Source: a virus. From it: DNA of 34,658 nucleotides. The notes under the pieces are model-generated. The model was not told the origin of the DNA. It worked only from the letters and a program-made list of their open reading frames with translations, and did no database searches. The translations under genes were made by a program, and so were the position numbers. The stretch lies in the IMG/VR virus record IMGVR_UViG_3300018080_000387, positions 1 through 34,658 of that record; one strand, given 5' to 3'. Positions 329 through 34,658 of the stretch are shown here, in pieces (position 1 is the stretch's first letter; each line of letters starts with the position of its first letter).

Positions 329-838
329 TTAGAAGAGGTTCCCGAACTTAGGGTCGGTGACGGCTGGCGTCATCTCCTGGCGATCTCTCCACGCTGTTTT
401 GAAGAGTTCAGCCTCTGCTGGGTGGGTGGCAAAGAAGTTTGTCGCCTGGTTGTCCAGCGAGATCTTCTTGACTGCTCCTGCTTTGATAAGCTCGGGCAGA
501 ACGCGCGCAGCTTTTTCATCCTCGCCGACGAGTCGAGTAACGGCTTCGTCATCATACCGAGCGGCTTTGAACTTACGCTGCAGCTTGAAGTCTCCGACCG
601 TCTCCTTTGATTGCTGAACCAGAGAATGCGCTTCTTTCACCTTCTCAGCGACCACGTCTTCTTGACGCATGATGCTCTGGAGTGCCTCAAAGGCATCGGG
701 GAACTCAGTCTTGAAACTCTCCCTCATTTCTTCCAGCACACTAAGCTCGCGCTCATACGCTGCGACGGCGTCCTTGGCCACGTCTACGGGGTTGAGTTCT
801 GTTTGTTGGGAAGGTTTTCGGATACGTCCGATAGGCAT
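329..838 (-). CDS. Unknown protein with predicted coiled coil (169 aa)
   Basis: The protein starts MPIGRIRKPSQQTE and has long charged helical stretches at about residues 20-95 (AYERELSVLEEMRESFK and following), which look like coiled coil. The C-terminal part is more mixed and ends in KFGNLF. The start at 838 is 3 nt from the end of the UDG gene, and an AGAGGA ribosome binding site lies inside the UDG 3' end, so the two are probably translationally coupled. I recognise no catalytic motif or family. One partial copy of the dispersed palindrome (GAACTCAGTCT, 701-711) lies inside it. A structural or scaffolding-type role is possible but not supported beyond the helical character. Confidence 0.8.
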   Translation of the reverse strand: MPIGRIRKPSQQTELNPVDVAKDAVAAYERELSVLEEMRESFKTEFPDAFEALQSIMRQEDVVAEKVKEAHSLVQQSKETVGDFKLQRKFKAARYDDEAVTRLVGEDEKAARVLPELIKAGAVKKISLDNQATNFFATHPAEAELFKTAWRDRQEMTPAVTDPKFGNLF

Positions 839-841
839 GTT

Positions 842-1597
842 TCACATCCTCTCAATGTGTTTTCGAATAACGTCATATTCGTCGTGTAGCTCAGCTACTC
901 TTGCGAGAATCACTCGCAGGTCTTCCAGGGTTTCATCTGCTAGTCCGCCTGGTTCGAACGATTGTGTCTTCTTGTTGTAGCTGTCGTTCCTCGCTATGTA
1001 CGCTGGGTGGTAGATGCCCACCACGTCGTAGTCCAGCGGGTAGACCAGCTTGTCATCTCCTTTCAGCGGAAGAACCCGGCCGGGTATCTCCACTCCGTTT
1101 GATTCCCCTTTGATTCGTGCTGATGGATGAGGGCTGGAGAATAGGACGCCATGCATCTTCTCGATGCTCCAGCTCTTTCCTCCGCACAAAGCATTGAGGG
1201 CATATTTTCCAATCGCCACAATGAGCAGTGGGTCGATGAGGTAAATGATCTCGTGCAGCCGCGGCAGGCATTCTGCCTTCTCAGCCCCGGCTGGGTCACG
1301 GTTCTTGGGAGGCCGACAAGCAACGACGTTGGTGATGAACACATCATCCCGGTCTTGCCCAAGTACCTCCCACATTCCCCACAAGATGTCGCCGGCCTGT
1401 CCAACGAAAGGGCGCCCCGTTTTGTCCTCGTTCTCTCCAGGCGCTTCGCCCACGAACAAGATGTCTGCATCAGGGTTGCCCTCTCCGAACACTACCGACC
1501 TTCGGGTCTCATGTAACCCGCACCTCTGACAACTTTCCCACTGGTCCTGGAGCTCTTGGAGCTTTTTCAGCTTCCACTCTGGTGACCAGGGCCCCAT
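842..1597 (-). CDS. Family 4 uracil-DNA glycosylase with Fe-S cluster site
   Basis: This is a DNA base-excision enzyme that removes uracil. The family 4 hallmarks are all visible: active-site motif GEAPGENE (residues 50-57), GRPFVGQAG just after it, NVVACRPPKNRDP near residue 90, and the HPAY motif at 197-200. Four cysteines, C23, C26, C94 and C110, match the spacing of the 4Fe-4S ligands known in family 4 enzymes. The length (251 aa) is a little above the usual ~200. I chose ATG 1597, which overlaps the previous gene's stop as TGATG; a TTG one codon upstream (1600) is the alternative. It lies in the leftward operon between a small unknown gene and a coiled-coil protein. Its role in the phage is probably removal of uracil from viral DNA before or during replication. 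Confidence 0.94.
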   Translation of the reverse strand: MGPWSPEWKLKKLQELQDQWESCQRCGLHETRRSVVFGEGNPDADILFVGEAPGENEDKTGRPFVGQAGDILWGMWEVLGQDRDDVFITNVVACRPPKNRDPAGAEKAECLPRLHEIIYLIDPLLIVAIGKYALNALCGGKSWSIEKMHGVLFSSPHPSARIKGESNGVEIPGRVLPLKGDDKLVYPLDYDVVGIYHPAYIARNDSYNKKTQSFEPGGLADETLEDLRVILARVAELHDEYDVIRKHIERM

Positions 1598-2013
1598 CAA
1601 TGACCCTCCGGCAGAGTGATGCCGGCGCGCATAGCGGCCGTCACCTTCTTCGCCTGCTCAAGGTTGCGAGCCGAGATCTCCACGAGCTGCTCCAGCTCTT
1701 CCTCGATCTCGGGGTTCTCCGACACGAAGTACCAAGCTGATGGTACAAGCCTTAGCTTGGGCATGGGCCCTGGTAACAAGTCCACCGGTACCAGCAAGTT
1801 GAACCTGCCCACCGACCGGATGTTTCCTCGAGGGTCTGTGTCGGTCTGAAGTTGGCTGGCCAGCAGCATGACCTCGTGAAGCTCAATAGGCTGCTTGTCT
1901 GCTACTTTCTTCTCCACGTAGGAGACTGAGTCCGTGACTCCTTTGGGAAGGTGCCCAAAATACTTCTCTCCGTGCTGCGCCGTTACGATCACAGCTCTCT
2001 TTTTGTCTTTCAT
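1597..2013 (-). CDS. Unknown operon protein (138 aa)
   Basis: It begins MKDKKRAVIVTAQHGEKYFG and overlaps the helicase stop by 4 nt (ATGA) and the UDG start by 1 nt, so it is embedded in one transcription unit. The N-terminal half looks beta-rich (residues 5-80, with RFNLLVPVDLLPG). The C-terminal half is a charged helix (EIEEELEQLVEISARNLEQA). No cysteine cluster, nucleotide-binding loop or known motif is visible. Lying between a helicase and a uracil-DNA glycosylase suggests it acts in DNA processing, but this is guilt by association only. Confidence 0.85.
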   Translation of the reverse strand: MKDKKRAVIVTAQHGEKYFGHLPKGVTDSVSYVEKKVADKQPIELHEVMLLASQLQTDTDPRGNIRSVGRFNLLVPVDLLPGPMPKLRLVPSAWYFVSENPEIEEELEQLVEISARNLEQAKKVTAAMRAGITLPEGH

Positions 2014-3425
2014 GTGGTCTCCACTTTTTCGTCCTTCATTTTGATTGGGTAACCAAGGTTCTTTAGATTCCTTCGAAGGCTACGCCCGCAGCCTTCGCAT
2101 ATTTTGAGCGCGCAATCTTCAAACACCCGCACTAGTGGCGGGAGCTTCCCTTCATACCGACGTTGAATCCTCCCCCACGCCTGCTGGCGATCGTTGGGAG
2201 AGGAGAACGGCGTGGTGCAGTAGAGGGTGTCAAGTTCTGGCTTGTTGAGTCCTTCACGCGCTAATTGGAAGGTACCGATAACGGGATTGGATTCGCGCAG
2301 AATCCTCATCCGGTCTCCCTGCGGGGTATCTCCTGTGATGACCCCTGGCTTGGCGCCGCGCGCCCTCAACGTCACGATCTCGTCCAGCCTCCGAACATGC
2401 TCCACGCTGTGGCTCAGGACTAGAACTGTTCGCCCTGCTTGCAAGTCGGAAGACAGAGTTTGGTAGATGAAGTTGTTTCTCCAGTCAAGGCCACCAAGGA
2501 ATGTTCGAACTCGAGGAAGGCTAATGTCGTTGTTAGCGTCGGATATGAGAGGCTTGTACCGAAGATCGAACTCCCATTTCATTCGGTGAAAAACTGTAGC
2601 TGGAATCAGTTGTTGCTCAAGGTTCCTATGAATCACGCCTCCCAAGTGGGACTGGTAGATTGACTCCAGTCCGTCGATGCGCGAGGCTGTTGCGGTCAAG
2701 GAGAACCGACGCCCGAAGAAAAGGTCGGCCGATCGAACGAATACAGGAGCGCTCATGTGGTGCCCCTCGTCATAGAAGACGAGGCCGAAATGGCGCCTGA
2801 ACTTCATCGACCATTTATTCCTTCTCTGTGAAAGCGTGTGGACCATCGCGAGGACGAGGGGATGCTGCCAATTGGCAGCGTCTCCTTGGATGGTTCCCAC
2901 GCTTTCTACGTCTAGGAACTTCGAGATCTCTTCCTTCCACTGCTCCAAGAGCGCCGTCGTGTTCACGATGATGATGGTCGGCACTTTCAATGTGGCCGCC
3001 ATTTTCATAGCCAACACAGTTTTCCCCTGACCACACGCCAGGTTGAGCGTCCCGCTGTGGTTGCCTATCAGGGCAGCGAAGGATTCTTCTTGAGCTTCGT
3101 CTCGAAGTACGATGTTGTCTCTGATGTTCACCTCATGGAACGCCTTCGGGCTCAGGTCGATGAACTCGAACCCGAAGGCTGACCTTTGGTTGGGGGGGAG
3201 GAACTCCCGGGGAACTATGATGTGGTGGCGGTTCTCTTCCCACAACCTCAGTTCCCCGGCGCGCACCCCGATGAGCTGGTCTAGCTCATCGTAGATCTCT
3301 TCCTCTCCATGCTGGAACGTGAGCGCAGTCATGACGGCCGCCAAGTTCACACCACCTTTGGGAAGCACCAGGTTGTTTGTGATGTACGCCTTGTGAGGGT
3401 CCATGCAGTAGAACTGGCGAGTCAT
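2010..3425 (-). CDS. SF2 DNA/RNA helicase (XPB/UvsW-like)
   Basis: This ATP-dependent helicase of superfamily 2 has Walker A ACGQGKT at residues 130-136, the motif II box DEGH at 219-222, motif III TAT at 244-246 within SLTATASR, and motif VI QAWGRIQRR near residue 420. A CEGCGR pair near the C-terminus may bind metal. The length of 471 aa fits UvsW/XPB-type phage helicases, which remodel forks and recombination intermediates. An upstream in-frame start (3473) exists. ATG 3425 is preferred because it has a perfect GGAGG site 5 nt upstream and makes an ATGA overlap with the XRE gene. It is followed with a 4-nt overlap by the 138-aa gene, so the operon is tightly coupled. Whether the substrate is a branch, an R-loop or an RNA cannot be told. 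Confidence 0.92.
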   Translation of the reverse strand: MTRQFYCMDPHKAYITNNLVLPKGGVNLAAVMTALTFQHGEEEIYDELDQLIGVRAGELRLWEENRHHIIVPREFLPPNQRSAFGFEFIDLSPKAFHEVNIRDNIVLRDEAQEESFAALIGNHSGTLNLACGQGKTVLAMKMAATLKVPTIIIVNTTALLEQWKEEISKFLDVESVGTIQGDAANWQHPLVLAMVHTLSQRRNKWSMKFRRHFGLVFYDEGHHMSAPVFVRSADLFFGRRFSLTATASRIDGLESIYQSHLGGVIHRNLEQQLIPATVFHRMKWEFDLRYKPLISDANNDISLPRVRTFLGGLDWRNNFIYQTLSSDLQAGRTVLVLSHSVEHVRRLDEIVTLRARGAKPGVITGDTPQGDRMRILRESNPVIGTFQLAREGLNKPELDTLYCTTPFSSPNDRQQAWGRIQRRYEGKLPPLVRVFEDCALKICEGCGRSLRRNLKNLGYPIKMKDEKVETT

Positions 3426-3841
3426 CTGTCCTCCAATGCTGAGCTGAGAATGAGCTCGATTCTTCTTCGGCAAACAGCCTGAGTGCGCGGGGTCATGTTT
3501 ATCCCCATCCTCTTCAGCTCGAACCGTATCTCTGTGGCAATTCTGTCCGATATGCCCGCTGTGTTCGGCAGTGGAATCTCAGAGATATTGATACCCACTC
3601 TGGCAAGCTGCGCCTTGACCCAGGCTTTCCTGATTTTTCCTATCGTCTCTTGGTCGAAGGTGCTGAGCCGAAGGATTCTATCCAGCTCTTTTTTCTGCGG
3701 TATCCTATTTCCATTCTCGTAGGCACTCAGGGTACCGGGATTGAGTTCAGTCACCCTGCAGAACTCTAACTTCTCATAGCGTTGGGAGGCTTTGCGCGCT
3801 TCACGCAGAGCCTCTCCAAACCCTCGGTCGGGTAGCGGCAT
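3422..3841 (-). CDS. XRE/Cro-type helix-turn-helix protein
   Basis: The N-terminal ~65 residues carry a Cro/C1-type HTH: FGEALREARKAS as the first helix, then TELNPGTLSAYENGNR, in which the recognition helix and the conserved AYENG turn are plain, followed by IPQKKELDRIL. The remaining ~75 residues form a separate helical domain ending RRRIELILSSALEDR. It is the second gene of the leftward operon, overlapping the helicase start by 4 nt and directly following the Cys-rich gene. A regulator placed early in a replication/repair operon is a candidate phage transcription switch. One exact copy of the dispersed palindrome lies 129 nt upstream of its start, and a one-mismatch copy (3738-3748) lies within it. 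Binding is inferred, not shown. Confidence 0.85.
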   Translation of the reverse strand: MPLPDRGFGEALREARKASQRYEKLEFCRVTELNPGTLSAYENGNRIPQKKELDRILRLSTFDQETIGKIRKAWVKAQLARVGINISEIPLPNTAGISDRIATEIRFELKRMGINMTPRTQAVCRRRIELILSSALEDR

Positions 3842-4291
3842 TTAGTCTGGCCTCCTTCGTCTGAAGAATCCGAGTAGCATCTCCAGCATCCCTTCGACAG
3901 CTCCCCACAGTGCGTGCAACCCCATCTGTTGGACGAATGACATGTCTGGATCCAATTCCATTGGAGCTTGGACTGAGTTCTGAGGAGACAGCAGGTCGCC
4001 CCCGGGCCTCCGTATACTATTTTGAGCCGTTCTACTCACAGACGTTCGCGTAGGCACGTACCCAGGCGGTTGGTATCTCCCCTCCTCTTGCTCCTTTCTG
4101 TGTGTTAGAACCTTGCATGAGTGAGAGTGAATACAACCTTTGCATGTGGGATCATGGCTTTCGTATCGATGACCAAAGCAGCAGTCACCGCCTTTGCGAT
4201 AGTGGGCGGGGCAGTAATCACAGTTTCGATTGCGGTGACCATCGAAACATTCTTGAACCATCTGCTCCACGTCCACTTGATTGATGGGCAT
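3842..4291 (-). CDS. Cysteine-rich zinc-binding-like protein (149 aa)
   Basis: The first ~65 residues hold about ten cysteines plus several histidines, in pairs such as CDYC, GDCCFGH, CKGC and HSHSC. This pattern suggests one or two zinc-binding modules. After a polar, Pro/Ser-rich linker the C-terminus is hydrophobic and then basic (MLEMLLGFFRRRRPD), perhaps a membrane-associated or amphipathic helix. ATG 4291 has a GGAGG site 8 nt upstream. It is the first gene of the leftward operon and faces the divergent late gene at 4343. I recognise no family. The mix of a Cys cluster and a basic hydrophobic tail is compatible with a host-interaction or regulatory role, but nothing specific can be claimed. 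Confidence 0.8.
   Translation of the reverse strand: MPINQVDVEQMVQECFDGHRNRNCDYCPAHYRKGGDCCFGHRYESHDPTCKGCIHSHSCKVLTHRKEQEEGRYQPPGYVPTRTSVSRTAQNSIRRPGGDLLSPQNSVQAPMELDPDMSFVQQMGLHALWGAVEGMLEMLLGFFRRRRPD
3970..3980. repeat. Dispersed palindrome copy GGACTGAGTTC
   Basis: This is an exact match to GRACTSAGTYC inside the Cys-rich gene. On the coding (minus) strand it reads as part of Q-N-S-V-Q codons. It lies 129 nt upstream of the XRE gene start, the best-placed copy for autoregulation. Confidence 0.7.
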
Positions 4292-7030: not shown

Positions 7031-7761
7031 ATCAGGTCAAAGCTGAGGCCTTCTTCGACGAGCTTGAGAAGGTAGCGATAGCCTCCTTCTTAGCGAGAGC
7101 AGGTAGGGGTTTGCAGAAGAACCTTCTCGGAGCTGCTGAGCGAATAATCCACCCGGTGAGAGGGATCAAGGCGGGGTGGAGAGAACTTACCCCTGCTTTG
7201 AAGATGAAGAGTATGGCTCCTGCTGAGCGCGCAGCCCACCTTAAAGGTGGTTGGTTAGGGAAACCTGGCGAGCATTTGAAGGGGGCTTTAGGGACCTCTC
7301 GACAAGACCTTCTTCAGACCATGCGCGGCACCACGGCAGAAGCTGCAAAGAAAGGTAGGCTCCGGGCTACGGCTGAGGAGCTTTCCCGTCGGGGATGGAC
7401 CGGGCAAGGGGCCCGCACCAAATACCTTCCTGTTGGTGATAAAGGACAGATCGCTTTGATGACCGCTCCTGCTGCCCCGGAAGTGGTCAAAGCTATGAGG
7501 AAGGAACCGACTGCCACTGGAGAAGGGGCTGGAGCTGAGTCCGGACTCGGAGAGCTCGGCGGGCTCGCCGGGTGGGTAGCCGGCAGCGGCCTGGGCCTCC
7601 CCGGCATGGCTATGTGGTACGGAGGTCAGAAGGCAGGGGAGTATGCTGGCCGTGCCATAGACAGGTTAAGGGGCGGCGCTTCTTTGGGCACCGCTCTTGC
7701 GGCCCCGTCAAGACGGGAAGCCATCCAGCAGCTTTCTAACATCCGAAGGTTTCACGGGTAA
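7015..7761 (+). CDS. Unknown late protein, Gly/Ala-rich C-terminus (248 aa)
   Basis: The preferred start is GTG 7015, because a strong GGAGGAG site lies 8 nt upstream inside the preceding gene; TTG 7027, which would make a TTGA overlap with the previous stop, is the alternative. The N-terminus carries AFFDELEKVA, the clearest example of the hydrophobic-x-Lys-x-Ala motif in this window. The middle is basic and helical. Residues ~170-235 are Gly/Ala-rich and hydrophobic (GGLAGWVAGSGLGLPGMAMW), consistent with a membrane-active or pore-like segment. It sits directly before the portal gene with a 1-nt overlap (TAATG). The function is unknown; an internal or ejected virion protein is one possibility. 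Confidence 0.75.
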   Translation: MGDPLNQVKAEAFFDELEKVAIASFLARAGRGLQKNLLGAAERIIHPVRGIKAGWRELTPALKMKSMAPAERAAHLKGGWLGKPGEHLKGALGTSRQDLLQTMRGTTAEAAKKGRLRATAEELSRRGWTGQGARTKYLPVGDKGQIALMTAPAAPEVVKAMRKEPTATGEGAGAESGLGELGGLAGWVAGSGLGLPGMAMWYGGQKAGEYAGRAIDRLRGGASLGTALAAPSRREAIQQLSNIRRFHG

Positions 7762-9803
7762 TGCCAGGCATCGAATCATTGGACTACGGTCCCAGCGCCT
7801 CCTTCCGGTTCTCTCGGAACAGTGGAAGGTCCATCAGCGGCGAAGCCCTGGGCGCCATCAGGTACCCGTCGCCGTTCTTTGACATTGCTCACACCTACCT
7901 GCCGTCATCGTTCAAGACGATGCTCCGGTGGTGCCGGTACTACTTCCTCACGAACCCACTTATCAACGCCGTCTGCTACAAGATGGCGGCGTACCCGACC
8001 ACCGACCTCGTCTTCGACTCCAACAAACACCTCATGAATGAGCAGTGGTCGCGGTTCTTCTCCCGCGTCCTGCACTTCAAGAAGTTCGAGGTGGAAGCGG
8101 GCTTGGACTACAACACCTACGGCAACGCTTTCATCAGCCTCCACTACCCATTCAGGAAGTTGTTGCGCTGCAAAAGCTGCGGCCGCGTGACGCCGGTGGA
8201 GAAACAGAAGTACACCTTCCGAGAGTACAAGTTCGTCGGCGAGTGCCAAAGGTGTTGCCATTACGGTGAATTCCAGGTGAAGGACCACTACGTCCGGTCG
8301 GTCCGGGAGATCCGCCTCATCCGGTGGAACCCTGAGTACATCACCATTCAGCACAACGAGGCGACTGGGGAGAACCGGTACTACTACGTCATTCCTCCGT
8401 CGATGGGGAACGATGTTCGCATGGGCAAGCGCCATGTCATCGAGAAGATCCCTCAGATTTCCATCGAGGCCCTGCGCAAGAACAAGGCCCTGCTGTTCAG
8501 TCAGAACAACATCTACCACATGCAGCGCCCGACCATCGCCCAGAAGGATCGAGGGTGGGGCATGCCCATGATCCTCCCGGTGCTCAAGGATACCTACTAC
8601 CTGCAGATCCTCCGCAAGGCCCAGGAGGCCATTGCCATTGAGCACATCGTGCCGATGCGTCTCCTGTTCCCTCAGTCCGCGAGCGGTACCGCCGACGTCT
8701 ACTCCACAGTCAACATGACCCAGTGGAGGGACAAGATTGAGAAGGAGCTCATCCGCTGGCGCCTCGACAACAACTACATCCCCATCATGCCAGTGCCCGT
8801 AGGGTCGCAGACCCTGGGTGGCGATGGCCGGGCCCTCATGCTCAGCCAAGAGCACCGCCAGTGGTCGGAGCACATCGTGGCCGGTATGGGCGTACCGATC
8901 GAGTTCGTGTTCGGCGGCATGCAATACAGCGGGTCCAACGTCTCGATGCGCATCCTCGAGAACCAGTTCCTCGACGAGAAAACTCAAAGAAAACAATTAG
9001 TTGACGACTTTATCATCCCGAGTGTTGGTGCGTTCATGGGCTGGGAGCCTGTGACCTGCCACTACAAACGCTTCAAGATGGCGGACGATCTGCAGCGCTC
9101 TGCTTTCTACCTTCAGCTCAACCAGGCCGGGAAGGTTTCGGACGAGGCCCTCCTCGAGGACGCCGACTGGGATTCCAAGAAGGAGCAGGAGCGGATCGAG
9201 GAGGAGCGCAAGCACGTGCTGGAGAGCCAGCGACGTCAGGCACTTAGTCAAGCCCAGATCCAGGGCGAAGCCCAGCTCGTCATGGCCAAGTTCCAGATGC
9301 GCGGCCAGAAGCTCATGGAGCAGCTCACCCCCGCGGCCGCGCCGGTGGGGCTGCCGCCGGCGGAGCCGATGCCGGGGATGGGAACCCCTGGGCAACTGAG
9401 TCCAACTGCCGAGGGCCAGATGATGAACCAGGAGGGGGAGATGATGAACTCTTCCGGCCAGGTTCCTGGTATGGAGATCCCACCGACTGCACCCCCGGGA
9501 GGGGCTCCGCCTCCTCCGCCCGAGGGGGCCGCGCTCCCGATGGATCAGGTGCAGTCGCAGCTCACACCGGGGGTCAACTACGACCTCACTATGATCGCCA
9601 GCCAGGTTGTGGGGTGGCTCAACCAGCTTCCGGACCACGAGAAGAACCACGAGCTCGTGAAGATGCAGATCGACAACCCACAGCTCTACGCTATCGTGCT
9701 TCCGATGCTCCGCACCTCTGCTGGCGCCGAGCAGAACTCGGCTGCCATGCCGCAGCCTGAGCAGCGCAATGCTCGGCGTGGCCCAGAGGCTGCCGCACTT
9801 TGA
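7761..9803 (+). CDS. Portal protein
   Basis: The portal forms the dodecameric channel through which DNA is packaged and ejected. Support: 680 aa; an N-terminal wing/clip-like region; a central segment KDTYYLQILRKAQEAIA followed by hydrophobic strands; the GVPIEFVFGGMQYSGSN stretch with the long helix RILENQFLDEK typical of tailed-phage portals; and a Gln/Glu-rich coiled C-terminus ending in a Pro/Gly/Met-rich tail (about residues 530-610). An unusual Cys module, CKSCG (about 136-140) and CQRC (about 159-162), looks like a zinc ribbon inserted in the wing. It is the last gene of its operon. Codons are visibly more GC-rich than in the upstream genes. A one-mismatch palindrome copy (CAACTGAGTCC, 9393-9403) lies in the tail region. 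Confidence 0.85.
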   Translation: MPGIESLDYGPSASFRFSRNSGRSISGEALGAIRYPSPFFDIAHTYLPSSFKTMLRWCRYYFLTNPLINAVCYKMAAYPTTDLVFDSNKHLMNEQWSRFFSRVLHFKKFEVEAGLDYNTYGNAFISLHYPFRKLLRCKSCGRVTPVEKQKYTFREYKFVGECQRCCHYGEFQVKDHYVRSVREIRLIRWNPEYITIQHNEATGENRYYYVIPPSMGNDVRMGKRHVIEKIPQISIEALRKNKALLFSQNNIYHMQRPTIAQKDRGWGMPMILPVLKDTYYLQILRKAQEAIAIEHIVPMRLLFPQSASGTADVYSTVNMTQWRDKIEKELIRWRLDNNYIPIMPVPVGSQTLGGDGRALMLSQEHRQWSEHIVAGMGVPIEFVFGGMQYSGSNVSMRILENQFLDEKTQRKQLVDDFIIPSVGAFMGWEPVTCHYKRFKMADDLQRSAFYLQLNQAGKVSDEALLEDADWDSKKEQERIEEERKHVLESQRRQALSQAQIQGEAQLVMAKFQMRGQKLMEQLTPAAAPVGLPPAEPMPGMGTPGQLSPTAEGQMMNQEGEMMNSSGQVPGMEIPPTAPPGGAPPPPPEGAALPMDQVQSQLTPGVNYDLTMIASQVVGWLNQLPDHEKNHELVKMQIDNPQLYAIVLPMLRTSAGAEQNSAAMPQPEQRNARRGPEAAAL

Positions 9804-9806
9804 GCT

Positions 9807-9842
9807 AAAAAAGACTCAGTCCATTGGGGATGGACTGAGTCT
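9807..9842 (-). terminator. Intrinsic terminator of the small leftward cassette
   Basis: A perfect 13-bp stem (9812-9824 with 9830-9842) with a 5-nt TGGGG loop is followed, on the minus strand, by a run of six T (9812-9807). It ends the leftward genes starting at 10801. On the plus strand it closes the portal operon but has no U-tract, so rightward termination is less certain. Each stem arm contains a one-mismatch copy of the dispersed palindrome. Confidence 0.85.
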
Positions 9843-9854
9843 CAGCAGATTCCG

Positions 9855-10142
9855 TTACACCCACCTCAGCAGTCGGTGTTTGCATCGAGGACACACTTGC
9901 TTGTGAAGCTCGTTCACCTCTCTGCGTACTTCGGACTCTACCTTATCGATCACCATCTCAGGAACCTCCAAGAACTTGCACAGACAATCACGCCCGCAGA
10001 AGACTCTGGTTTCTCCTGCCTCAGTGATGGTGATCATTTTTACTCTGTTTACGTGGAAGCCACACTGGTCGCACTTAGTTGAAGCTTTCCCTACGCGACC
10101 AGCGAATCTGGAGGCAGGTCGTCTGCCGATACCAGCTGCCAT
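9855..10142 (-). CDS. Zinc-ribbon protein (95 aa)
   Basis: It has three Cys modules: CDQC near residue 24, CGRDCLC near residue 50 and CPRC near residue 85. This suggests one or two treble-clef or ribbon-type zinc sites joined by a helix (EVPEMVIDKVESEVRREVNEL). ATG 10142 has a GGAG site 9 nt upstream; ATG 10157 is an alternative with a weaker site. Either start overlaps the preceding 163-aa gene by 52-67 nt, unusually long for this genome. It is the last gene before the terminator. The family is unknown; a DNA- or RNA-binding or protein-interaction role would fit. Confidence 0.7.
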   Translation of the reverse strand: MAAGIGRRPASRFAGRVGKASTKCDQCGFHVNRVKMITITEAGETRVFCGRDCLCKFLEVPEMVIDKVESEVRREVNELHKQVCPRCKHRLLRWV

Positions 10143-10582
10143 AGGGGAAGACTCCATTTCTCAACAGCGCACCAGAAGCACACGTTACCTGCGTCTTCGT
10201 TGTCTCCACTCCATTCGAAGCTCACCAAAGGGCCCTTGCCGCGACCGCGAACAAGGACCCCTCTTTCAACTCGCAGAACGCTTGTCGAAGCGAGCTCGGT
10301 GATTGGTTCAAACGATTGGCCGCACACGTCGATACCATCATCGACCATGCATGCATCGTCACGAAGCTCTAACAGGTTTACATTATGTTCAGCACTGCAC
10401 TGGGGGCACAGCCATTTTACTTTATCCCCATCTTGGAACTCATCCTTCTCTTCTTCCGTGATGAATTCCACAACCACGTCCCCATCGTGGTCTTCGTCGT
10501 ACCGAACAGCGCCTATGCGAATACGCAAGACTTCCTCCGGCCCAGGATGGAGGGGTCTGTCACAGCACAGGCATATTTTCAT
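10091..10582 (-). CDS. Zinc-ribbon protein (163 aa)
   Basis: It begins MKICLCCDRPLHPG from ATG 10582 with GGAAG 7 nt upstream; TTG 10618 is an upstream alternative. Cys pairs CLCC, CPQC and CFWC, with extra single Cys residues, indicate two metal-binding units. Between them is a strongly acidic, beta-like region (YDEDHDGDVVVEF). It overlaps the 36-aa mini-gene upstream by 23 nt and the 95-aa zinc-ribbon gene downstream. I recognise no family. Together with its neighbour it makes a small cassette of cysteine-rich proteins placed antisense between the portal and RNA polymerase genes. Confidence 0.7.
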   Translation of the reverse strand: MKICLCCDRPLHPGPEEVLRIRIGAVRYDEDHDGDVVVEFITEEEKDEFQDGDKVKWLCPQCSAEHNVNLLELRDDACMVDDGIDVCGQSFEPITELASTSVLRVERGVLVRGRGKGPLVSFEWSGDNEDAGNVCFWCAVEKWSLPLWQLVSADDLPPDSLVA

Positions 10583-21204: not shown

Positions 21205-21740
21205 CAGACCAAGGCATGCCGATGCCTGACTGGGCGGACGAGGCCCGGCGGCAGATGTACGAAGCCCATGGTTCCATCGATTACCAGAAGGGTGGGGTCG
21301 AGGTGCGGAACCTGGACAAGATCCTACACTTCAGCACTCACTTTGCTGAGTACTTGGAGCGGGACTCCACCATCGTGGTTCACCTGTTCCCTCGCGGTGG
21401 CGCGGAGGACAGGTATTATGCTGAGGAGCTGAGGGATGGGAAGCGCATCCCCGGGAGGTTGGAGCTCCACTTCAGCAAGATTGAGTTCCCGAACGACATG
21501 GAGAGTCGTATCCAGGACGCGGCCGACAGGACGTGGGCTGGAGACATTGCCATCGAGGAGATTTCAGTCCTCCGCTATGAAGATGAGGACGAAGTGGTGA
21601 GGGGGGACAACGCTCGAGAGCATAGGACTGGGACTTTCGTTGTCCAGTTTCAAGAGGCCGTCAACGCCGCCCACTTGATAGGCACCCGCAAGTTCGTAGA
21701 CAAATTCTGTGAAGAGTTGGACAAGGAGCTCGAGGGATGA
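21201..21740 (+). CDS. Unknown late protein (179 aa)
   Basis: ATG 21201 overlaps the previous stop (ATGA) and has an AGGGAGA site 6 nt upstream. The protein is acidic, with alternating strands and helices (STIVVHLFPRGGAED, then GRLELHFSKIEFPND) and a helical C-terminus KFVDKFCEELDKELEG. There is no membrane segment, Cys pair or known motif. It is coupled by a 4-nt overlap to the P-loop/HExxH gene, so the two products probably work in the same structure or step. A tail completion or assembly factor is possible, but this is unsupported by any motif. Confidence 0.75.
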   Translation: MTDQGMPMPDWADEARRQMYEAHGSIDYQKGGVEVRNLDKILHFSTHFAEYLERDSTIVVHLFPRGGAEDRYYAEELRDGKRIPGRLELHFSKIEFPNDMESRIQDAADRTWAGDIAIEEISVLRYEDEDEVVRGDNAREHRTGTFVVQFQEAVNAAHLIGTRKFVDKFCEELDKELEG

Positions 21741-23368: not shown

Positions 23369-23409
23369 AAGAGCGGGAACTGAGTTCCCGCCCAGGCCAA
23401 GTGGCCTGG
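23369..23409 (-). terminator. Tandem hairpins ending convergent operons
   Basis: The first hairpin is GCGGGAAC/GTTCCCGC (23373-23380 with 23384-23391). The second, CCAGGCC/GGCCTGG (23392-23398 with 23403-23409), follows with no gap. On the minus strand the first hairpin is followed by CTCTTTTAT, a short U-tract, so it should stop the leftward operon. On the plus strand it lies just past the stop of the P-loop/HExxH gene. The stem of the first hairpin is itself an exact copy of the dispersed palindrome. Confidence 0.8.
23377..23387. repeat. Dispersed palindrome copy GAACTGAGTTC
   Basis: This is the only exact copy outside a gene. It forms the upper stem and loop of the terminator hairpin and extends to GGGAACTGAGTTCCC. 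Confidence 0.7.
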
Positions 23410-25048: not shown

Positions 25049-25633
25049 CTAGTAGGTTCGCGCCTTCAGCAGCTTTTTGAGAAATGACATGCGGTGGTAG
25101 GGGCAGGGCCCCGCAAGAAGAATCTGCTTCCGGTGCGGCTTGGTGCCGTACCCCTTGTTCTTCTCCCACCCATAGGCAGGGTATTGCTCTGCCATCTCGG
25201 TGATATCGTTGTCCCTGATCACCTTGGCGAAGATGCTGGCGGCCGACACTTGCCAGTGCCAGACGTCTGCTTTCTCAACTGCTCTTTGGTCTCCTTCGTA
25301 GCCATTGATGGTGCGGACCCCGTCAATGATCAGTTTTGCTCTCGGAGGTAGTCCGGCCACGGCGTCCCTTGCTGCCATTTGCCAAGCGCCCGCAATGCCG
25401 AGCTCATCGATGGTCTGGGGGAGGGCCCACCCAATCCCGATGAAGCGCGCAGCTTCCAGGATGGGCACAACTAGCTCCTCTCTTCTTTTTTCGCTCAGAC
25501 TCTTTGAGTCTGCGACTCCAGGAATAGGACTCAGTCCTTTTGGGAAAGCCAGAACGGCCACACAGAGTGGGCCTGCCAGGCAGCCCATACCAACCTCGTC
25601 CAATCCTGCTGACAAGTTCTTATTCTTTTCCAA
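25049..25633 (-). CDS. rnhB: Ribonuclease HII
   Basis: It cleaves RNA in RNA-DNA hybrids, for example primers or misincorporated ribonucleotides. All family motifs are present: GLDEVGMGCLAGP with D12 and E13; DSKSLSEKRREE; the second-strand Asp in LIIDG (D104); KADVWHWQVSAASIFAKVIRD with D123; and YGWEKNKGYGTKPH. D12, E13, D104 and D123 correspond to the known catalytic DEDD set. KAD replaces the commoner KGD. The length of 194 aa is typical. The start is TTG 25633 with GGAGG 11 nt upstream inside the preceding gene. It probably works with the replication genes at 842-3425, though it lies in a different operon. Confidence 0.95.
   Translation of the reverse strand: MEKNKNLSAGLDEVGMGCLAGPLCVAVLAFPKGLSPIPGVADSKSLSEKRREELVVPILEAARFIGIGWALPQTIDELGIAGAWQMAARDAVAGLPPRAKLIIDGVRTINGYEGDQRAVEKADVWHWQVSAASIFAKVIRDNDITEMAEQYPAYGWEKNKGYGTKPHRKQILLAGPCPYHRMSFLKKLLKARTY
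25527..25537. repeat. Dispersed palindrome copy GGACTCAGTCC
   Basis: This perfect palindrome extends to AGGACTCAGTCCT. It lies in the RNase HII gene and is read on the minus strand as G-L-S-P codons. Confidence 0.7.
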
Positions 25634-25976: not shown

Positions 25977-26002
25977 CGAAGACCTTGTACCAGGAACTTC
26001 TC

Positions 26003-28864
26003 ATGATTATCGAGCTGAACCCGCACCCTCGCAATGACCCCTACGACTACTTTGTCGAGGATGAGGACGCCTACCCGGACAATCCCTACCTCGATGAGGA
26101 AGAGGAGATGCGCCAGATAGAGGCAATGGAGAAGATCCATGCCTCTCCTTCCGAGTTTGTAGAGTTCTCCGTCTACATGCCCCACAAAGGGCACCTCGAG
26201 AAATTCAGCTTTGGGGAGCGTCGGTACCTTCGGACCATCTACGACACACCGGCGAAGCGGAAGCTCCTCATGGCGGGGCGACAGGTCGAGAAGTCGACCC
26301 TGCTGGGCAATCTGTGCCTGGCCTACTCCGCCATCAATCCCTTCTTCCGCACTCTCTACGTCAGCCCTTCTAATCAGCAGACCAAGGTATTCAGTCGTGA
26401 CCGAATCAAAGAGCCCTTGGAGATATCTCCGGTCCTCAGCAAGTTCACGAACTCGAAGCTACTTTCCAACGTCCTAGAGAAGAAATTTGTCAACAAGTCC
26501 CAGGTGACTCTTCGGTTCGCGTTCCTCAATGCCGACCGCTGCCGGGGTATCCCGGCCGACCAGATCCTCATCGATGAGTTCCAGGACATCCTGTTGGAGA
26601 ATGTACCTGTCATCGAGGAGTGCGCGTCCCACTCTGACCACAAGCTGTTCACTTACAGCGGAACGCCCAAGTCTCTCGATAATGCCATAGAGCATTATTG
26701 GTCTCGGTTCTCGACCCAGAATGAATGGGGAGTGCCTTGCAAGAGGCACGGCACTCCCAAAAATCCAGGGTCATGGCATTGGAACATTCTAGCCGAAGAC
26801 AACATTGGAGACGAAGGTCTCATCTGCGATAAATGTGGGGAGTCTATCGACCCTCGAGACCCTGACGCCAAGTGGTTGTCTCTCAACCCCGACCCCAAGG
26901 TAGACAAGCCGTTTGAAGGGTACCGGCTGCCTCAGTTGATGGTCCCGTGGATCGACATCTCGGACATTAAAGACAAGCAGGTCAAGTACAGCCGAGCCAA
27001 GTTCTACAACGAGGTCCTGGGGCGCAGCTATGACTCAGGAACCCGGCCGCTCACTCGTCGGGACATGCAGCGCAACTGTTGGGACCAGTTGTCCATGTCC
27101 TACTACCGGGACGTCATCCGATACTGTCAGACCCACCCAGTATTCATGGGTGTCGACTGGGGCTGTCACGATGACCAGACCCGAATTCTGACCGATCGCG
27201 GGTTTGTCCGCTTCAAAGACTTGACCGACGACGACGTGGTTGCGCAGTTCGACGAGCGCACCAGGGAGCTCAGCTTCGTCAAGCCCATGGTCCGGACGGT
27301 TCGAGACTGGGACGGAGACTTGCTGCATTTCGAGGCGAAGGGCCTCGACATGATGCTCACCGACACGCACCGGATGTTGTTCAAAGGGAAGCACGCTACC
27401 GAGTTCAAAGTGGAGTGCGCAGGCGACTTTGTAAAACGTACGGGTCAGGTCAAATTCGTAGGAACCACATCCTTTGTCAGTGGCCAAGAGCGCGATTCGT
27501 TCACCCTGCCAGGGCTACCGTCCTCGGCGGGATATTCGGGCTGCGAGCCTCGGACGTTCAACATGGACGACTGGTTGGAGTTCCTTGGATACTTCTTGTC
27601 TGAGGGTGGTCTTTGCTGGGTCCCCAAGTTGTGGGCGGGGGCTCGACCATCTTGCATAAGGTTATCCCAACGAGAGACGGTGAACCCGGAAGCCACCGCC
27701 AAGATCCGAAGCTGCATGGACCGACTTGGGGTCGAGTACTCTGAGTTCCCCAACCCGAAGACCGGGGACGTGAACTGGACGATCCGCGGGAAGCAGTTCT
27801 GGCATTGGGTGGAACAAAACGTCGGTGGAAGTAGTGCGACCAAGAGGATCCCTCGGGAGTTCATGCGCCTCCCGTTGCGTCAGCTCCAGATCTTGTGGTC
27901 CGCAATGATGCTTGGTGACGGGTCCTATGACGAGCGCGAGAACTGTCACAATGGGAACTACACCTCGACTTCCAAAGGGCTGTGCGAGGATTTCCAGGAA
28001 CTGTGCGTACTGATGGGCTTGCGCTCGACACTGTCCCTCCACAAAGCCGCGGAGGGGAACCGGAAGGACCGTTGGCGTCTGAGCTGGTCGTCTGGTCGTG
28101 ACTACACGTTCAATGACCCGAGCCGCGTCAAGAAGGTTCCGTACAAAGGCAAGGTCTACTGTTGCAAGGTACCTACAGGCTTCATCGTGACCGAACGCAA
28201 CGGCCGTATCGGTTACCAGGGGAACACAGGAGAGGGAACGTTTACGGTCGTCACCCTGGGCGGGTATCTACCGTTCGCTCCAGAATACTTCACCATCTTC
28301 TATGCGAAGCGTTTTGAGGGCCTGGAGTCGGATCCAGAAGTACAGCTCAAGCAAATCAAGCAACTCATTGCTGACTTCAATGTTCGTTATGTAGGGGTCG
28401 ACTACGGTGGTGGTTTTTGGCCCAACGACCGGTTGGTGCGCGCCTACGGGGCGGAGAAGATCAAGAAGTACCAGTGGGTGGGTCAAATCAAAAAGAAGAT
28501 CGTGTTCGAACCGCGCCTCGCAGTTCCTCGTTACCTCTGCCACCGCACTGAGGTGATGAGCGACATTTTCAATACCATCAAGCGATCCAACGTTTTCAAG
28601 TTCCCTCGTTGGGAAGAGTTTGAGGACCCGTTCGCCATGGACTTCCTGAATATCTATTCGGAGTACAATGAGCGGCTACGGATGAACGTCTACAAGCACG
28701 CTCCGGGGAATCCTGACGACACCTTCCACTCAGTCCTCTACTGCTTCTTGGCGTCGTTCTTCTACAAGAAGCGTCCCGATGTGCTGCTCCCAGAGAAGGA
28801 AGTGGACCAGCCAAAGGGAGAGGACGGTGAGGACGTGGGCGACTACGATTTGGACATTATGTGA
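26003..28864 (+). CDS. terL: Large terminase subunit, interrupted by an intein
   Basis: This is the ATP-driven DNA packaging motor and nuclease. From ATG 26003 (AGGAA about 6 nt upstream; TTG 25985 is an alternative) the precursor is 953 aa. ATPase: Walker A-like AGRQVEKST (91-99), Walker B LIDEFQD (189-195), and coupling motif TYSGTP. A Cys/His cluster (CKRHG and CDKC, about residues 250-282) looks like a zinc module. The RuvC-like nuclease begins at GVDWG (383-387). It is split there by a 354-residue intein (388-741) and resumes as TGEGTFTVVTLGG, then GVDYGGG and a late DDTFHSVLYC with further acidic residues. The spliced protein would be 599 aa, a normal TerL size. No small subunit is obvious next to it. 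Confidence 0.94.
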   Translation: MIIELNPHPRNDPYDYFVEDEDAYPDNPYLDEEEEMRQIEAMEKIHASPSEFVEFSVYMPHKGHLEKFSFGERRYLRTIYDTPAKRKLLMAGRQVEKSTLLGNLCLAYSAINPFFRTLYVSPSNQQTKVFSRDRIKEPLEISPVLSKFTNSKLLSNVLEKKFVNKSQVTLRFAFLNADRCRGIPADQILIDEFQDILLENVPVIEECASHSDHKLFTYSGTPKSLDNAIEHYWSRFSTQNEWGVPCKRHGTPKNPGSWHWNILAEDNIGDEGLICDKCGESIDPRDPDAKWLSLNPDPKVDKPFEGYRLPQLMVPWIDISDIKDKQVKYSRAKFYNEVLGRSYDSGTRPLTRRDMQRNCWDQLSMSYYRDVIRYCQTHPVFMGVDWGCHDDQTRILTDRGFVRFKDLTDDDVVAQFDERTRELSFVKPMVRTVRDWDGDLLHFEAKGLDMMLTDTHRMLFKGKHATEFKVECAGDFVKRTGQVKFVGTTSFVSGQERDSFTLPGLPSSAGYSGCEPRTFNMDDWLEFLGYFLSEGGLCWVPKLWAGARPSCIRLSQRETVNPEATAKIRSCMDRLGVEYSEFPNPKTGDVNWTIRGKQFWHWVEQNVGGSSATKRIPREFMRLPLRQLQILWSAMMLGDGSYDERENCHNGNYTSTSKGLCEDFQELCVLMGLRSTLSLHKAAEGNRKDRWRLSWSSGRDYTFNDPSRVKKVPYKGKVYCCKVPTGFIVTERNGRIGYQGNTGEGTFTVVTLGGYLPFAPEYFTIFYAKRFEGLESDPEVQLKQIKQLIADFNVRYVGVDYGGGFWPNDRLVRAYGAEKIKKYQWVGQIKKKIVFEPRLAVPRYLCHRTEVMSDIFNTIKRSNVFKFPRWEEFEDPFAMDFLNIYSEYNERLRMNVYKHAPGNPDDTFHSVLYCFLASFFYKKRPDVLLPEKEVDQPKGEDGEDVGDYDLDIM
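27164..28225 (+). other. Intein with LAGLIDADG endonuclease inside terL
   Basis: The self-splicing element occupies codons 388-741 of terL. Evidence: Cys1 of CHDDQTRILTDRGFVRFKDL (block A), LTDTHRM (block B, TxxH), two LAGLIDADG-type helices (LGYFLSEGG near 528 and MMLGDGSYDE near 635), and the C-terminal block VPTGFIVTERNGRIGYQGN followed by Thr. Removing it rejoins GVDWG to TGEGTFTV, an intact nuclease motif. The usual penultimate His is Gly (GN/T) and the +1 residue is Thr, so this is a non-standard but plausible splice junction. Confidence 0.9.
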
Positions 28865-29130
28865 GGAAACCACCGTTTTAGCTCTGCTCTCCGGCGCTTC
28901 CTAACTTTGTCCGGCTCGAGTTCTTTGAGCTGGAATTGAGGTCCTCTGTGGAGGTACCTATCTATGCTGTCCAAGGTGATATACACCTCTCTGGTTCCAG
29001 CAACGTGGATCTGAATGACGTCACTTTTTCTGATACGTCGAAATAAAGTGGATCGAGAGCATCCAAGGAGCTTCATTGCCTCCTTCTGGTCCACTAGCAC
29101 TTGGCCTTCAGTCTCGATTCTTCCCACCAT
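28843..29130 (-). CDS. MerR/excisionase-like DNA-binding protein (95 aa)
   Basis: Residues ~13-60 (VDQKEAMKLLGCSRSTLFRR, then VYITLDSIDRYL) have the winged helix-turn-helix pattern of MerR/excisionase (HTH_17-like) proteins: an acquisition helix, CSRSTLFRRI as the recognition helix, and a beta wing before the final helix. The C-terminal 35 residues are very basic (KVRKRRRAELKRW). It lies alone on the minus strand between two late operons, its 3' end overlapping the terminase 3' end by 22 nt. A transcriptional regulator or recombination directionality factor would fit. There is no integrase in the window, so a regulator is the better guess. Confidence 0.75.
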   Translation of the reverse strand: MVGRIETEGQVLVDQKEAMKLLGCSRSTLFRRIRKSDVIQIHVAGTREVYITLDSIDRYLHRGPQFQLKELEPDKVRKRRRAELKRWFPHIMSKS

Positions 29131-31098: not shown

Positions 31099-31102
31099 TC
31101 AC

Positions 31103-31693: not shown

Positions 31694-34658
31694 ATGCTCA
31701 AGCTCGCGACATTCAAGGGGGTATCGGACGAGGGCGAGCCGCTCGTCCAGGTGTTCCACAAAGGGGACTCAGTTCCGAAGCTCGCCGGCGCGATGATGCC
31801 GGAGGTTCAGAGCTGGTTGAGCCAGTACCAGCCCGAGAAAGGGAAGACTGCGGTCCTAGTCAACGCGATGGGCTCATCCGAGTATTGGGGCCAGAACATC
31901 AACGGCGACCTGTTCCCCGAGGGCGGCCTGGTCCATGATTGTCGCAATCATCCTGAGACTCAGCACCCGGTGGATGATTTCACCGGGAAGGTGATACCCG
32001 CCTACGGGTACTGGACTTTTCTCCACGCCTACCCGTTTGTCCACCACAAGAACAAGGACCCCAACCGCGCGTTTGGGAAGGTGGTCCTCGCATGCTGGAA
32101 CCCGCGCATGCACCGGGTCGAGCTCGTCATCATCCTTGATCACGAGCTCGCCATGCAGCACGGCGCCCAGCACGTCATCGATCGCATCATGGCCGGGGAG
32201 TTCCCGGACGTCAGCATGGGCTGCTTCACATCTGGGACCATGGTGACCATGGCGGACGGCACCCGTCGTCCGATAGAGGACATCAAAGTCGGTGACGAGG
32301 TCCTGACCCACAAGGGTAGGGCGCGCAAGGTTACAGAGCTCCATCGCCGGAAGTACAAGGGTGACCTCTACAGCATCAAAGCGGAAGCCCACCCGACCAT
32401 CCGATGTACCAGAGGACATCCCTTCCTGGCCTACGCACAGGCGCAAGTGAAAAAGAAGGATGATCACGCCAACTGGAAATGGCGTGATCGTACCGTTGGT
32501 GAGCCTGAATGGTTGGAGGCCAGTGCCCTCCGTGGTGAGTACTTGATTGAGCCTATACGGGCCGTTCGTCCACGAGGACCATACCCTTTGCGTGGATCCA
32601 GAGCTGAGGCCCGCCTGCTTGGTTATTACTTGGCGGAAGGTCACCTCCTGCGGAGCAGGTCAGGTGAGATCTCAGGCATCGAGTTGACGACCCATAAGGA
32701 CGATCTTGTCCACGACGAGATTGAAGAGCTGTGCGAGCAGTACGGAACCCAGAACCCTCCATCGTTTCACCAGCGCGTCAACTCCGAGGATTCCATCGGG
32801 GTCTATATCTTCGACCGGGACCTTGCAATGACGTGCCTCCGGCACGCCTCACAGTACTCCCGTGAGAAGTGCTTGTCCGAGCGAGTGGTTGGGGCGGAGA
32901 CCGAATACGTCAAGGAGTTGATCGGCGCCTACGCAAACGGTGATGGTTGCGGCTACGATGGTACGCTCAAACTGTCGACGGCGTCTGAGGATCTGGCCTG
33001 GCAGCTGGCGTCTATGCTCCATCGCGTGGACGCTATGCCTTCGGTTTCCTGCCTCACGCACAAAGCCGGCTCTGGGTTCTCTACCGAAGACACCTATGAA
33101 TGGGTGGTCCACATCGGGAAGCAGTGGGCACCGATCCTGGCCCCGTACTGTGGCAAGGTAGACCCTGTTGAGGTCATCAAATCGAAGAACTCCCGCAAGC
33201 GCATTCGCGATGAGGTCCTCACACCCATCCGCGAGATCTCCTCGATGTACGTAGAGACCGACGTCTACAACTTTGAGGTCGAAGAGGACAACAGCTACCT
33301 CGTCGAGGGCATTGCCGTCCACAACTGCAAGGTCCCGTACGACGTCTGCGCCATCTGCGGCCACAAATCGAAGACTCGGAAGGACTACTGCAACTGCATC
33401 CGTTACATCGGGATGAACAAGATCCTCGATGACGGCCGGCAGATCGGGGTCATCAACCTGCACCCCCGGTTCTTCGACATCAGCTTCGTGTTCATCGGCG
33501 CCGACAAGACCGCCAAGGTCATGTGCAAGCTTGGGTCCGGACTTTGGGTCCCTCAGTCCATCGTTGATGCTGAGATGGTCTACGGCACCTCCGAGGATGA
33601 CGGTGAACTCGTGAAGGCGGCGAGTCGCCGCAGAGAGATCGTGGACTTCTACCTGGGGAAAAGAGACACCCCTCCAGGTAGTGTCGAGAGGCGCGCAGAA
33701 GTCCACGACTTCTATACGAAAGCTGCTGAGGCCCCTGACGACGAGGCTCCACGTAATCTGCACTACGTCTCCACTGAGGAGCGTGCCATGGCTGATGGTG
33801 AGGATCTTCGGAACATTATAGCCCAGAAGCTGTCCACCGATGGTGAGTCGGTGGTTCGCGTCGACAAGGTAGCGCCCCCTCCGCCGAAGACCTACTTCGG
33901 GAGGTCTGACAACCAGGGGAATCTGGGTAATCGAGCTGTCATGGACGGTGAGCTGAAGACTAACGCTGACGCAGATGACGCCGATCAGACTCCCGAGCCA
34001 CTGTACCCGGGTCGTGGGAAGGTAGCGTCGATACCTCTACACGCTTTGCTAGGTGGGGGCCTCGGTGCGGGCGTCGGTGCACTGTCAGGGGAGGACGCTG
34101 GTCGCGGAGCCCTCTTGGGAGGAGGAGCTGGTCTTCTCGCTGGTGCGGGAGCGGGCGCACTTGGTAAGCACGTCATCGGCCCTGCGGTAAAGAGGGAGTT
34201 TCTTCGGCCCGGGAAGAAAATCAGGGACGCCGGCACGAAGATTCAGATGCTGTCGGATCTCCGCCGCCAAGCGAAAAAAGCGGGAAACACTGACCTGTCT
34301 CGTCAGGCGGTTGATGCCATGAACAAAATTGTTCAGGACATCAGGAAGCCGCTGGCGAAGCATCGAGAGTTCGTTACGTCGAGCCAGGGGTTTGCGGACA
34401 AGATTCCCGGGCCCACGAGCAACGTAGTAGCGGGAGTCGCAGGGGCGGGGGCAGGAGCTCTAGCCCCTCAGCTGTTCCCCAAGGAAGGGTCCGCAACCTG
34501 CAAGGAGTGCGGCAAAGAGAAGAAGGAAACCGACAACGGCGTCGAGTGCGATTGTGGGGTAAGGCTCGCCTCCATCAGAATTGGCCCGCCACCAAAGCCC
34601 AACCGAAAAGAGTATCCTTTCGTTGGCACTATCAACTTCCGTGGACTCATGATCCACG
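31694..34658 (+). CDS. Probable prohead protease with intein and long C-terminal extension, partial
   Basis: The frame is open from ATG 31694 to the window edge (988 codons) and continues beyond. The N-terminal extein has NINGDLFPEGGL, then a His cluster in FLHAYPFVHHKNKDP (about 105-125), then DVSMG (172-176), followed after the intein by KVPYDVCAICGHKSKTRK and DISFVFIGADKTAKVM. This His...Ser layout matches phage head-maturation serine proteases of the gp21/S78 type; Ser174 is the candidate nucleophile. A Cys cluster (CAIC, CNC) after the junction looks like a zinc site. The long tail holds Lys-x-Ala sites, a Gly-zipper stretch (about 781-826) and a second Cys cluster CKEC/CDC (about 936-956). 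Such an extension is unusual and may be a fused scaffold or internal protein. Confidence 0.7.
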   Translation, partial: MLKLATFKGVSDEGEPLVQVFHKGDSVPKLAGAMMPEVQSWLSQYQPEKGKTAVLVNAMGSSEYWGQNINGDLFPEGGLVHDCRNHPETQHPVDDFTGKVIPAYGYWTFLHAYPFVHHKNKDPNRAFGKVVLACWNPRMHRVELVIILDHELAMQHGAQHVIDRIMAGEFPDVSMGCFTSGTMVTMADGTRRPIEDIKVGDEVLTHKGRARKVTELHRRKYKGDLYSIKAEAHPTIRCTRGHPFLAYAQAQVKKKDDHANWKWRDRTVGEPEWLEASALRGEYLIEPIRAVRPRGPYPLRGSRAEARLLGYYLAEGHLLRSRSGEISGIELTTHKDDLVHDEIEELCEQYGTQNPPSFHQRVNSEDSIGVYIFDRDLAMTCLRHASQYSREKCLSERVVGAETEYVKELIGAYANGDGCGYDGTLKLSTASEDLAWQLASMLHRVDAMPSVSCLTHKAGSGFSTEDTYEWVVHIGKQWAPILAPYCGKVDPVEVIKSKNSRKRIRDEVLTPIREISSMYVETDVYNFEVEEDNSYLVEGIAVHNCKVPYDVCAICGHKSKTRKDYCNCIRYIGMNKILDDGRQIGVINLHPRFFDISFVFIGADKTAKVMCKLGSGLWVPQSIVDAEMVYGTSEDDGELVKAASRRREIVDFYLGKRDTPPGSVERRAEVHDFYTKAAEAPDDEAPRNLHYVSTEERAMADGEDLRNIIAQKLSTDGESVVRVDKVAPPPPKTYFGRSDNQGNLGNRAVMDGELKTNADADDADQTPEPLYPGRGKVASIPLHALLGGGLGAGVGALSGEDAGRGALLGGGAGLLAGAGAGALGKHVIGPAVKREFLRPGKKIRDAGTKIQMLSDLRRQAKKAGNTDLSRQAVDAMNKIVQDIRKPLAKHREFVTSSQGFADKIPGPTSNVVAGVAGAGAGALAPQLFPKEGSATCKECGKEKKETDNGVECDCGVRLASIRIGPPPKPNRKEYPFVGTINFRGLMIH
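31765..31775. repeat. Dispersed palindrome copy GGACTCAGTTC
   Basis: This copy lies 71 nt inside the probable protease gene and extends to GGGACTCAGTTCC. It is read as G-D-S-V-P codons, the same context as the copy in the RNA polymerase gene. Confidence 0.7.
32222..33325 (+). other. Intein with LAGLIDADG endonuclease in the protease gene
   Basis: It occupies codons 177-544 (368 aa). Block A is textbook (CFTSGTMVTMADGTRRPIED then VGDEVLT), block B is TRGHPF, the endonuclease helices are LLGYYLAEG (near 309) and LIGAYANGDG (near 409), and the end is VYNFEVEEDNSYLVEGIAVHN followed by Cys. All splicing residues (Cys1, His-Asn, +1 Cys) are present, so splicing should be efficient. Excision joins DVSMG to CKVPYDVC, right beside the candidate catalytic serine. 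Confidence 0.95.

Follow-up and report, generated by a model that had tools for sequence, protein, structure and literature searches.

The window analysed here, a 34,658-nucleotide IMG/VR fragment of an uncultured phage (IMGVR_UViG_3300018080_000387), carries dispersed copies of an 11-bp dyad, GRACTSAGTYC, in excess over codon-aware expectation. The copies lie mostly within genes, and related phages carry comparable dyads that have drifted from lineage to lineage. We tentatively suggest that GRACTSAGTYC represents, in this phage, a set of genome-wide, genome-specific dyads that are selected at the level of the DNA and would be bound by a phage-encoded dimeric protein. The most likely binder, which we rate at somewhat less than an even chance, is a winged helix-turn-helix (HTH) protein encoded at 28843-29130, beside the large terminase (TerL). 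An earlier note on this DNA had grouped the motif with dispersed binding sites of the stoperator, partition or packaging type, and we consider that class to be the right one; the motif exceeds its codon-shuffled expectation and has lineage-specific equivalents in relatives.

All 17 copies reported in the earlier note, eight exact and nine with one mismatch, are present where it had placed them.

701-711, unoriented: one-mismatch copy GAACTCAGTCT, within gene 329-838 (minus strand)
1923-1933, unoriented: one-mismatch copy AGACTGAGTCC, within gene 1597-2013 (minus strand)
3738-3748, unoriented: one-mismatch copy GGATTGAGTTC, within the XRE gene 3422-3841 (minus strand)
3970-3980, unoriented: exact copy GGACTGAGTTC, within gene 3842-4291 (minus strand), N-S-V codons
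7532-7542, unoriented: one-mismatch copy GAGCTGAGTCC
9393-9403, unoriented: one-mismatch copy CAACTGAGTCC, in the portal-like gene 7761-9803
9812-9842: two facing one-mismatch copies (9812 and 9832) that form a hairpin stem beside an A-run, between the convergent genes 7761-9803 (plus strand) and 9855-10157 (minus strand); terminator-like for minus-strand transcription
13851-13861, unoriented: exact copy GGACTCAGTTC, within the RNA polymerase gene at residues G-D-S-V-P, which are conserved in part among relatives
14594-14604, unoriented: one-mismatch copy GGACTGAGCTC, likewise within the RNA polymerase gene
18976-18986, unoriented: exact copy GGACTGAGTCC, G-L-S-P codons
19870-19880, unoriented: exact copy GGACTCAGTCC, G-L-S-P codons
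19986-19996, unoriented: exact copy GAACTCAGTTC, N-S-V codons
20483-20493, unoriented: one-mismatch copy CGACTGAGTTC
23377-23387: exact copy GAACTGAGTTC, embedded in a perfect dyad of greater length (GCGGGAACTGAGTTCCCGC) that follows gene 21737-23368 in intergenic DNA; in a terminator-like hairpin
25527-25537, unoriented: exact copy GGACTCAGTCC, within the gene for RNase HII, G-L-S-P codons
31765-31775, unoriented: exact copy GGACTCAGTTC, within an open reading frame that extends from 31694 to the window end

The division of the genic copies between two codon frames (G-L-S-P and D/N-S-V), with other copies in two intergenic hairpins (9812/9832 and 23377), is as the earlier note described it. 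It also described many copies as extending to 13-15 bp of symmetry; flanking symmetry past 11 bp is weak in the window.

The claimed excess was borne out by 200 codon-preserving shuffles, which keep every protein and the codon usage: eight exact copies are observed against 0.07 expected (standard deviation 0.27, maximum 2), and 17 copies with at most one mismatch against 2.44 (maximum 7). A separate run of 60 such shuffles agrees, and dinucleotide shuffles gave 3.19 matches at up to one mismatch (maximum 7, n = 100). Because GRACTSAGTYC had been picked by eye, we also scored all palindromes made of 5-base half-sites with gaps of 0 to 8 (5+n+5), among which GGACT-N-AGTCC ranks first in the window. 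Corrected for this search, the window scores 5.1 for exact matches against a shuffle maximum of 5.0, with none of 40 codon-shuffled genomes reaching it, and 5.9 against 5.3 when one mismatch is allowed. After full search correction, then, the window alone is only just significant, and given so small a margin the case is carried by the palindromes that its relatives (contigs designated by G numbers) have of their own. Those of G016, G029/G059 and G044 score some 7 to 25 log units higher than the maxima of their shuffles, the top palindromes of some other contigs are also above their shuffles, and an excess over codon shuffles recurs for the respective motifs of G016, G014, G011 and G005. An origin of the motif in codon usage or composition, or in a chance pattern caught by eye, could be argued from the several genic copies that share the same codons (GLSP, DSV/NSV) and from how barely the window alone beats the best shuffled-genome palindrome. 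We regard it as very improbable and reject it on the codon-preserving shuffles, all 200 of which fall short of the motif count; the margins in the relatives and the lack of conservation, among those relatives, of the residues at most sites also speak against it.

The phage from which the window derives is of a lineage marked by a fused beta-beta' RNA polymerase, in which related contigs are up to 177-202 kb long. Most are fragments (the most complete are G029/G059, G044, G019, G026, G020 and G021), so that every absence reported for them refers to the DNA covered, and their genes were called with a simple codon-usage caller. Exact GRACTSAGTYC is missing from 27 of 28 related contigs, the sole exception being one copy in G007. 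The earlier note had named loss from close relatives as something that would refute its proposal; the exact word is indeed almost absent, but several contigs have a different palindrome in its place, and even the closest relatives found share only about 60-78% protein identity with the window. G016 (139 kb) has 19 copies of TGACCWGGTCA (noted as TGACCNGGTCA) against 0.34 expected, with symmetric A-rich flanking positions, and the same word occurs five times in G014, where two of the copies form a tandem pair (44668/44683). G029 (84 kb) has 18 copies of TGWCCSGGWCA with TAA...TTA flanks, and G059, from the same metagenome (3300037851), has 18 copies of the 11-bp core. As the ends of G059 overlap both ends of G029, the two very probably represent one circularly permuted genome of about 188 kb, over which the dyad (TAATGWCCSGGWCATTA) has 18+18 core copies. 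G044 (202 kb) contains 15 copies of CGACACNGTGTCG (core form GACGACACWGTGTCGTC) against 0.06 expected. Smaller numbers occur on shorter contigs, of TGACANTGTCA in G011 and CGGACAGNCTGTCCG in G056, while the few copies of TGACASTGTCA in the likewise shorter G030 are marginal against shuffles. TGACCWGGTCA, TGWCCSGGWCA, TGACANTGTCA, CGACACNGTGTCG, GGACAGNCTGTCC and GRACTSAGTYC are all of odd symmetry and share a GAC/GWC core, suggestive of a single system that drifts by lineage. As far as two IMG/VR scans go, the motifs are specific to the phage rather than to a host: the 17-bp G029 motif is multi-copy in no contig besides G029 and G059, and the 17-bp G044 motif was found in G044 alone. A word shared through the host was rejected on these scans.

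No dispersed palindrome above the null was found in G019, G026, G024, G025, G015 or G043, nor one of this type in the cultured but distant Salmonella phage Arash and Vibrio phage D69 (RNA polymerase identity about 30-33%), whose top dyads are terminator-like. We keep GTTCG-N4-CGAAC of G005 as a doubtful member, since every copy is in one codon frame and the motif is missing from G019, whose XRE helix is similar. Repeats in G006 lie inside a coding array, and palindromes in G021 are confined to one locus; we dismissed both as instances of the same phenomenon. The G021 locus (contig of 176.9 kb) holds 16 exact copies of AATGGCCATGGCCATT at about 174.9-176.9 kb and 0-0.6 kb, across the ends of a contig that is probably circular, as its ends share a repeat, and has the look of an array of the origin, centromere or pac kind. 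In G020, CAACAnnnnTGTTG forms a smaller cluster in noncoding DNA at 94.1-96.3 kb.

The placement of the sites argues for selection on the DNA as such. They are mostly intragenic (intergenic counts of 2/8, 6/19, 3/13 and 4/17 in the contigs tested), with an intergenic share slightly above the noncoding fraction in most contigs. Six in-gene exact copies of the window were mapped onto relatives: five proved to encode poorly conserved residues (GLSP, RNSVL, QNSVQ), and the remaining one, G-D-S-V-P of RNA polymerase, lies in a better conserved stretch. The earlier note had held protein sequence alone to be insufficient; with most sites at residues unconserved among relatives, protein constraint offers no explanation. 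Within the RNA polymerase gene itself, the window and G016 have their sites at different residues, according to positions determined by hand. The sole asymmetric version, TGACCCGGACA of G029, is found both ways round among co-directional genes. Sites that are intragenic, unconserved and unoriented point to selection on DNA rather than to gene-by-gene control or RNA structure, and they argue for the number or coverage of sites mattering more than their position. The 17 motif sites of G044 are spaced more evenly than random (coefficient of variation 0.54, P 0.004); those of the window, G016, G029, G030 and G014 are not, and we dropped even spacing as a general rule. The genes beside the densest site clusters, looked through for a binder, offered no clear candidate.

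The proteins that enter the discussion of the binder and of the lineage are the following.

3422-3841, minus strand: XRE-family HTH protein, the binder proposed in the earlier note
7761-9803, plus strand: portal-like gene
10972-17139, plus strand: fused beta-beta' RNA polymerase, a single chain of 2055 amino acids, marker of the phage lineage
25985-28864, plus strand: large terminase, interrupted by an intein-like insertion and adjoining the candidate binder gene
28843-29130, minus strand: winged-HTH (HTH_17/MerR-like) protein, leading candidate binder, adjoining TerL

The TerL-adjacent protein is the 'MerR-like' protein of the earlier note, and its distribution fits that of the dyads better than does that of the XRE protein, if not perfectly. 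Wherever a motif-bearing contig extends over this locus (window, G016, G029, G030, G044 and G056; also G005), a syntenic HTH_17 gene separates the large terminase from the following conserved gene; in motif-free G019 and G026, the flanking genes are only about 45-60 bp apart and leave no room for it. Similar recognition helices go with the same form of motif (G044 and G056: GACA-x-N-x-TGTC; G001 and G005: GTTCG-N4-CGAAC). Longer members of the family match the PHROG_57 'terminase small subunit' profile (G044: 7e-7, G056: 1e-6, G030: 2e-4), and the G056 protein shows weak matches to small terminases in PDB (6hn7, 1j9i and 7lw0, E 0.003-0.05), including lambda gpNu1.

We suggest that each genome or contig has some 8 to 36 places at which a phage-encoded dimer binds a dyad specific to its lineage, and that the specificity of this dimer drifts lineage by lineage and the dyad with it. 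The reader may be the HTH_17 protein, which in some relatives is akin to the DNA-recognition domains of small terminases of the lambda gpNu1 type. The dyads could then label the phage's DNA as 'self' in many positions, serving the initiation of packaging, the capture of concatemers or the organisation of the genome, rather than the regulation of individual genes. If the binder were a small terminase, the motor would be able to pick out phage DNA at any point and pass over that of the host. In its fullest form, which is speculative and in our judgement rather unlikely, the proposal is that phages of this roughly 190-kb lineage carry scattered dyad 'barcodes' read by a small-terminase-like protein encoded beside TerL, that packaging may start anywhere on phage DNA while host DNA is ignored, and that barcode and reader co-evolve. 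The known lambda-type small terminase is likewise a winged-HTH protein encoded beside TerL; its cosB R sites, however, cluster at one cos locus, whereas the candidate sites here are symmetric and scattered genome-wide, with no clustering at a single cos or pac locus in the window, G016, G029/G059 or G044.

Several observations weigh against this assignment. G018, G015, G024 and G025 encode the HTH_17 protein and show no dispersed palindrome above the null, and G020 and G021, also positive, have clustered palindromes instead, so that the association by presence and absence is weak. The window's own protein matches excisionase and regulator profiles, not PHROG_57, and is closest in fold to Xis, RdfS and BldC. 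Together with the motif-free contigs that have the gene, this makes the assignment a lead, not a result; the association is in any case exploratory, because the candidate emerged from comparing the distribution of genes once the motifs were known, and the phages are few. For G005, the confinement of all sites to one codon frame means that they are possibly partly codon-driven. No phage with small-terminase sites scattered through its genome is known to us, and a literature search for such sites found none.

Dispersed operators or stoperators, at which a phage repressor would occupy all sites and block or roadblock phage or host RNA polymerase much as the Kpn2I C protein and the Rep protein of mycobacteriophage L5 do, are a rather unlikely alternative. 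L5-type stoperators (the Rep sites of cluster A mycobacteriophages) are short, dispersed and genome-specific, number up to about 30 and typically drift with phage relatedness (PMC6550527), in all of which the window and its relatives are alike. Some of our sites are intergenic, some form a tandem pair (G014) or lie in a convergent intergenic hairpin (9812/9832), and XRE-family C proteins are able to act as elongation roadblocks (PMC6237814). Stoperators of the L5 type are, however, asymmetric 13-mers that hold one orientation relative to transcription (PMC6550527), whereas the sites here are unoriented dyads, mostly intragenic, and occur in a fused-RNA-polymerase lineage in which no integrase or lysogeny module was seen, on contigs that are not all exhaustively annotated. 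A repressor-like XRE protein is, moreover, missing from the best example, G029/G059, and no Rep homologue was seen in the window. Inverted-repeat repressor sites are also repeated through the genome of the actinophage phiC31 as its conserved inverted repeats (CIRs); these lie between genes and are the targets of the phage's c repressor, and we set them beside the window dyads by description only. A literature search for dispersed palindromic repressor sites returned nothing relevant. Less likely still are nucleoid-organising, partition or occlusion sites of the Noc/NBS, SlmA/SBS or MatP/matS type, whose binder could come from the phage or from the host. These systems, too, read short palindromes dispersed over a chromosome (about 70 sites for Noc, 24-52 for SlmA; PMC4726725), and the even spacing in G044 would suit them, as the spacing in the other five contigs does not. 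They are chromosomal, though, with proteins unrelated to the candidates here and sites biased away from Ter, and our motifs, to the extent that IMG/VR reveals it, track the phage and not a word shared through the host. Homologues of ParB, MatP and SlmA were not noticed, in a search that was not exhaustive, and no ParB/TetR/MatP-type protein appears among the first 25 Pfam/PHROG families listed for 105 G029/G059 proteins, a scan confined to small proteins.

The XRE protein favoured by the earlier note as binder we consider improbable. Dimers of XRE/C proteins do bind short palindromes, as is established for C-boxes, and the AlphaFold model of the window protein is closest to C.BclI, C.AhdI and ClgR, with no match below E 0.001. 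The gene is syntenic beside a helicase in most relatives, and its predicted recognition helix varies as the motifs do. It is not present in every site-bearing genome, however: G029/G059, with the strongest motif and about 36 core sites, has no XRE protein detectable by profile, Pfam HTH_3 or synteny, and on this ground we rejected it as the general binder. G019, G026 and G020 have the protein and no dispersed palindrome of this type, and the XRE helix of G019 is similar to that of G005, yet the G005 motif does not occur in G019. Overall, packaging or some other use of the dyads by the HTH_17 protein is the possibility to which we lean, short of an even chance; a regulator or stoperator comes after it, an organiser after that, and what is left falls to the XRE protein, to chance and to binders not considered.

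Dispersed, genome-specific protein-binding sites are already known in a few temperate phages. Probable sites of this kind occur here as unoriented intragenic dyads across an uncultured phage lineage, which drift by lineage and are accompanied by a phage-encoded candidate reader; they offer a natural series of paired sites and candidate proteins in which to study the evolution of DNA-binding specificity. Should the HTH_17 reader prove to be a small terminase, it would suggest how a large phage that has no single pac or cos site tells its own from host DNA in packaging.

The lineage itself is remote from cultured phages, the nearest of which reach only about 30-33% RNA polymerase identity. A megablast search of a phage collection with the first 25 kb of the window matched no record, a genome-collection search with the RNA polymerase gave matches to bacterial records, mostly of low identity (27-32%), and neither an Rfam nor a tRNA search gave any hit in the window. 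By gene content, rather than by tree, the window can be likened to the mReC phages (multi-subunit-RNAP-encoding Caudovirales), with which it shares a beta/beta' RNA polymerase, a portal and a terminase on metagenomic contigs (PMC7481178); the text of that paper makes no mention of palindromes, repressors or helix-turn-helix proteins. Salmonella phage Arash, a cultured relative, has two separate open reading frames annotated as RNA polymerase beta subunit, as against the single 2055-residue chain of the window. By tblastn, the insertion in the large terminase of the window (about residues 394-750) has relatives in G004, G012 and G014, where they lie within the RNA polymerase gene; judged by these matches, related intein-like elements occupy two different genes within the fused-RNA-polymerase lineage.

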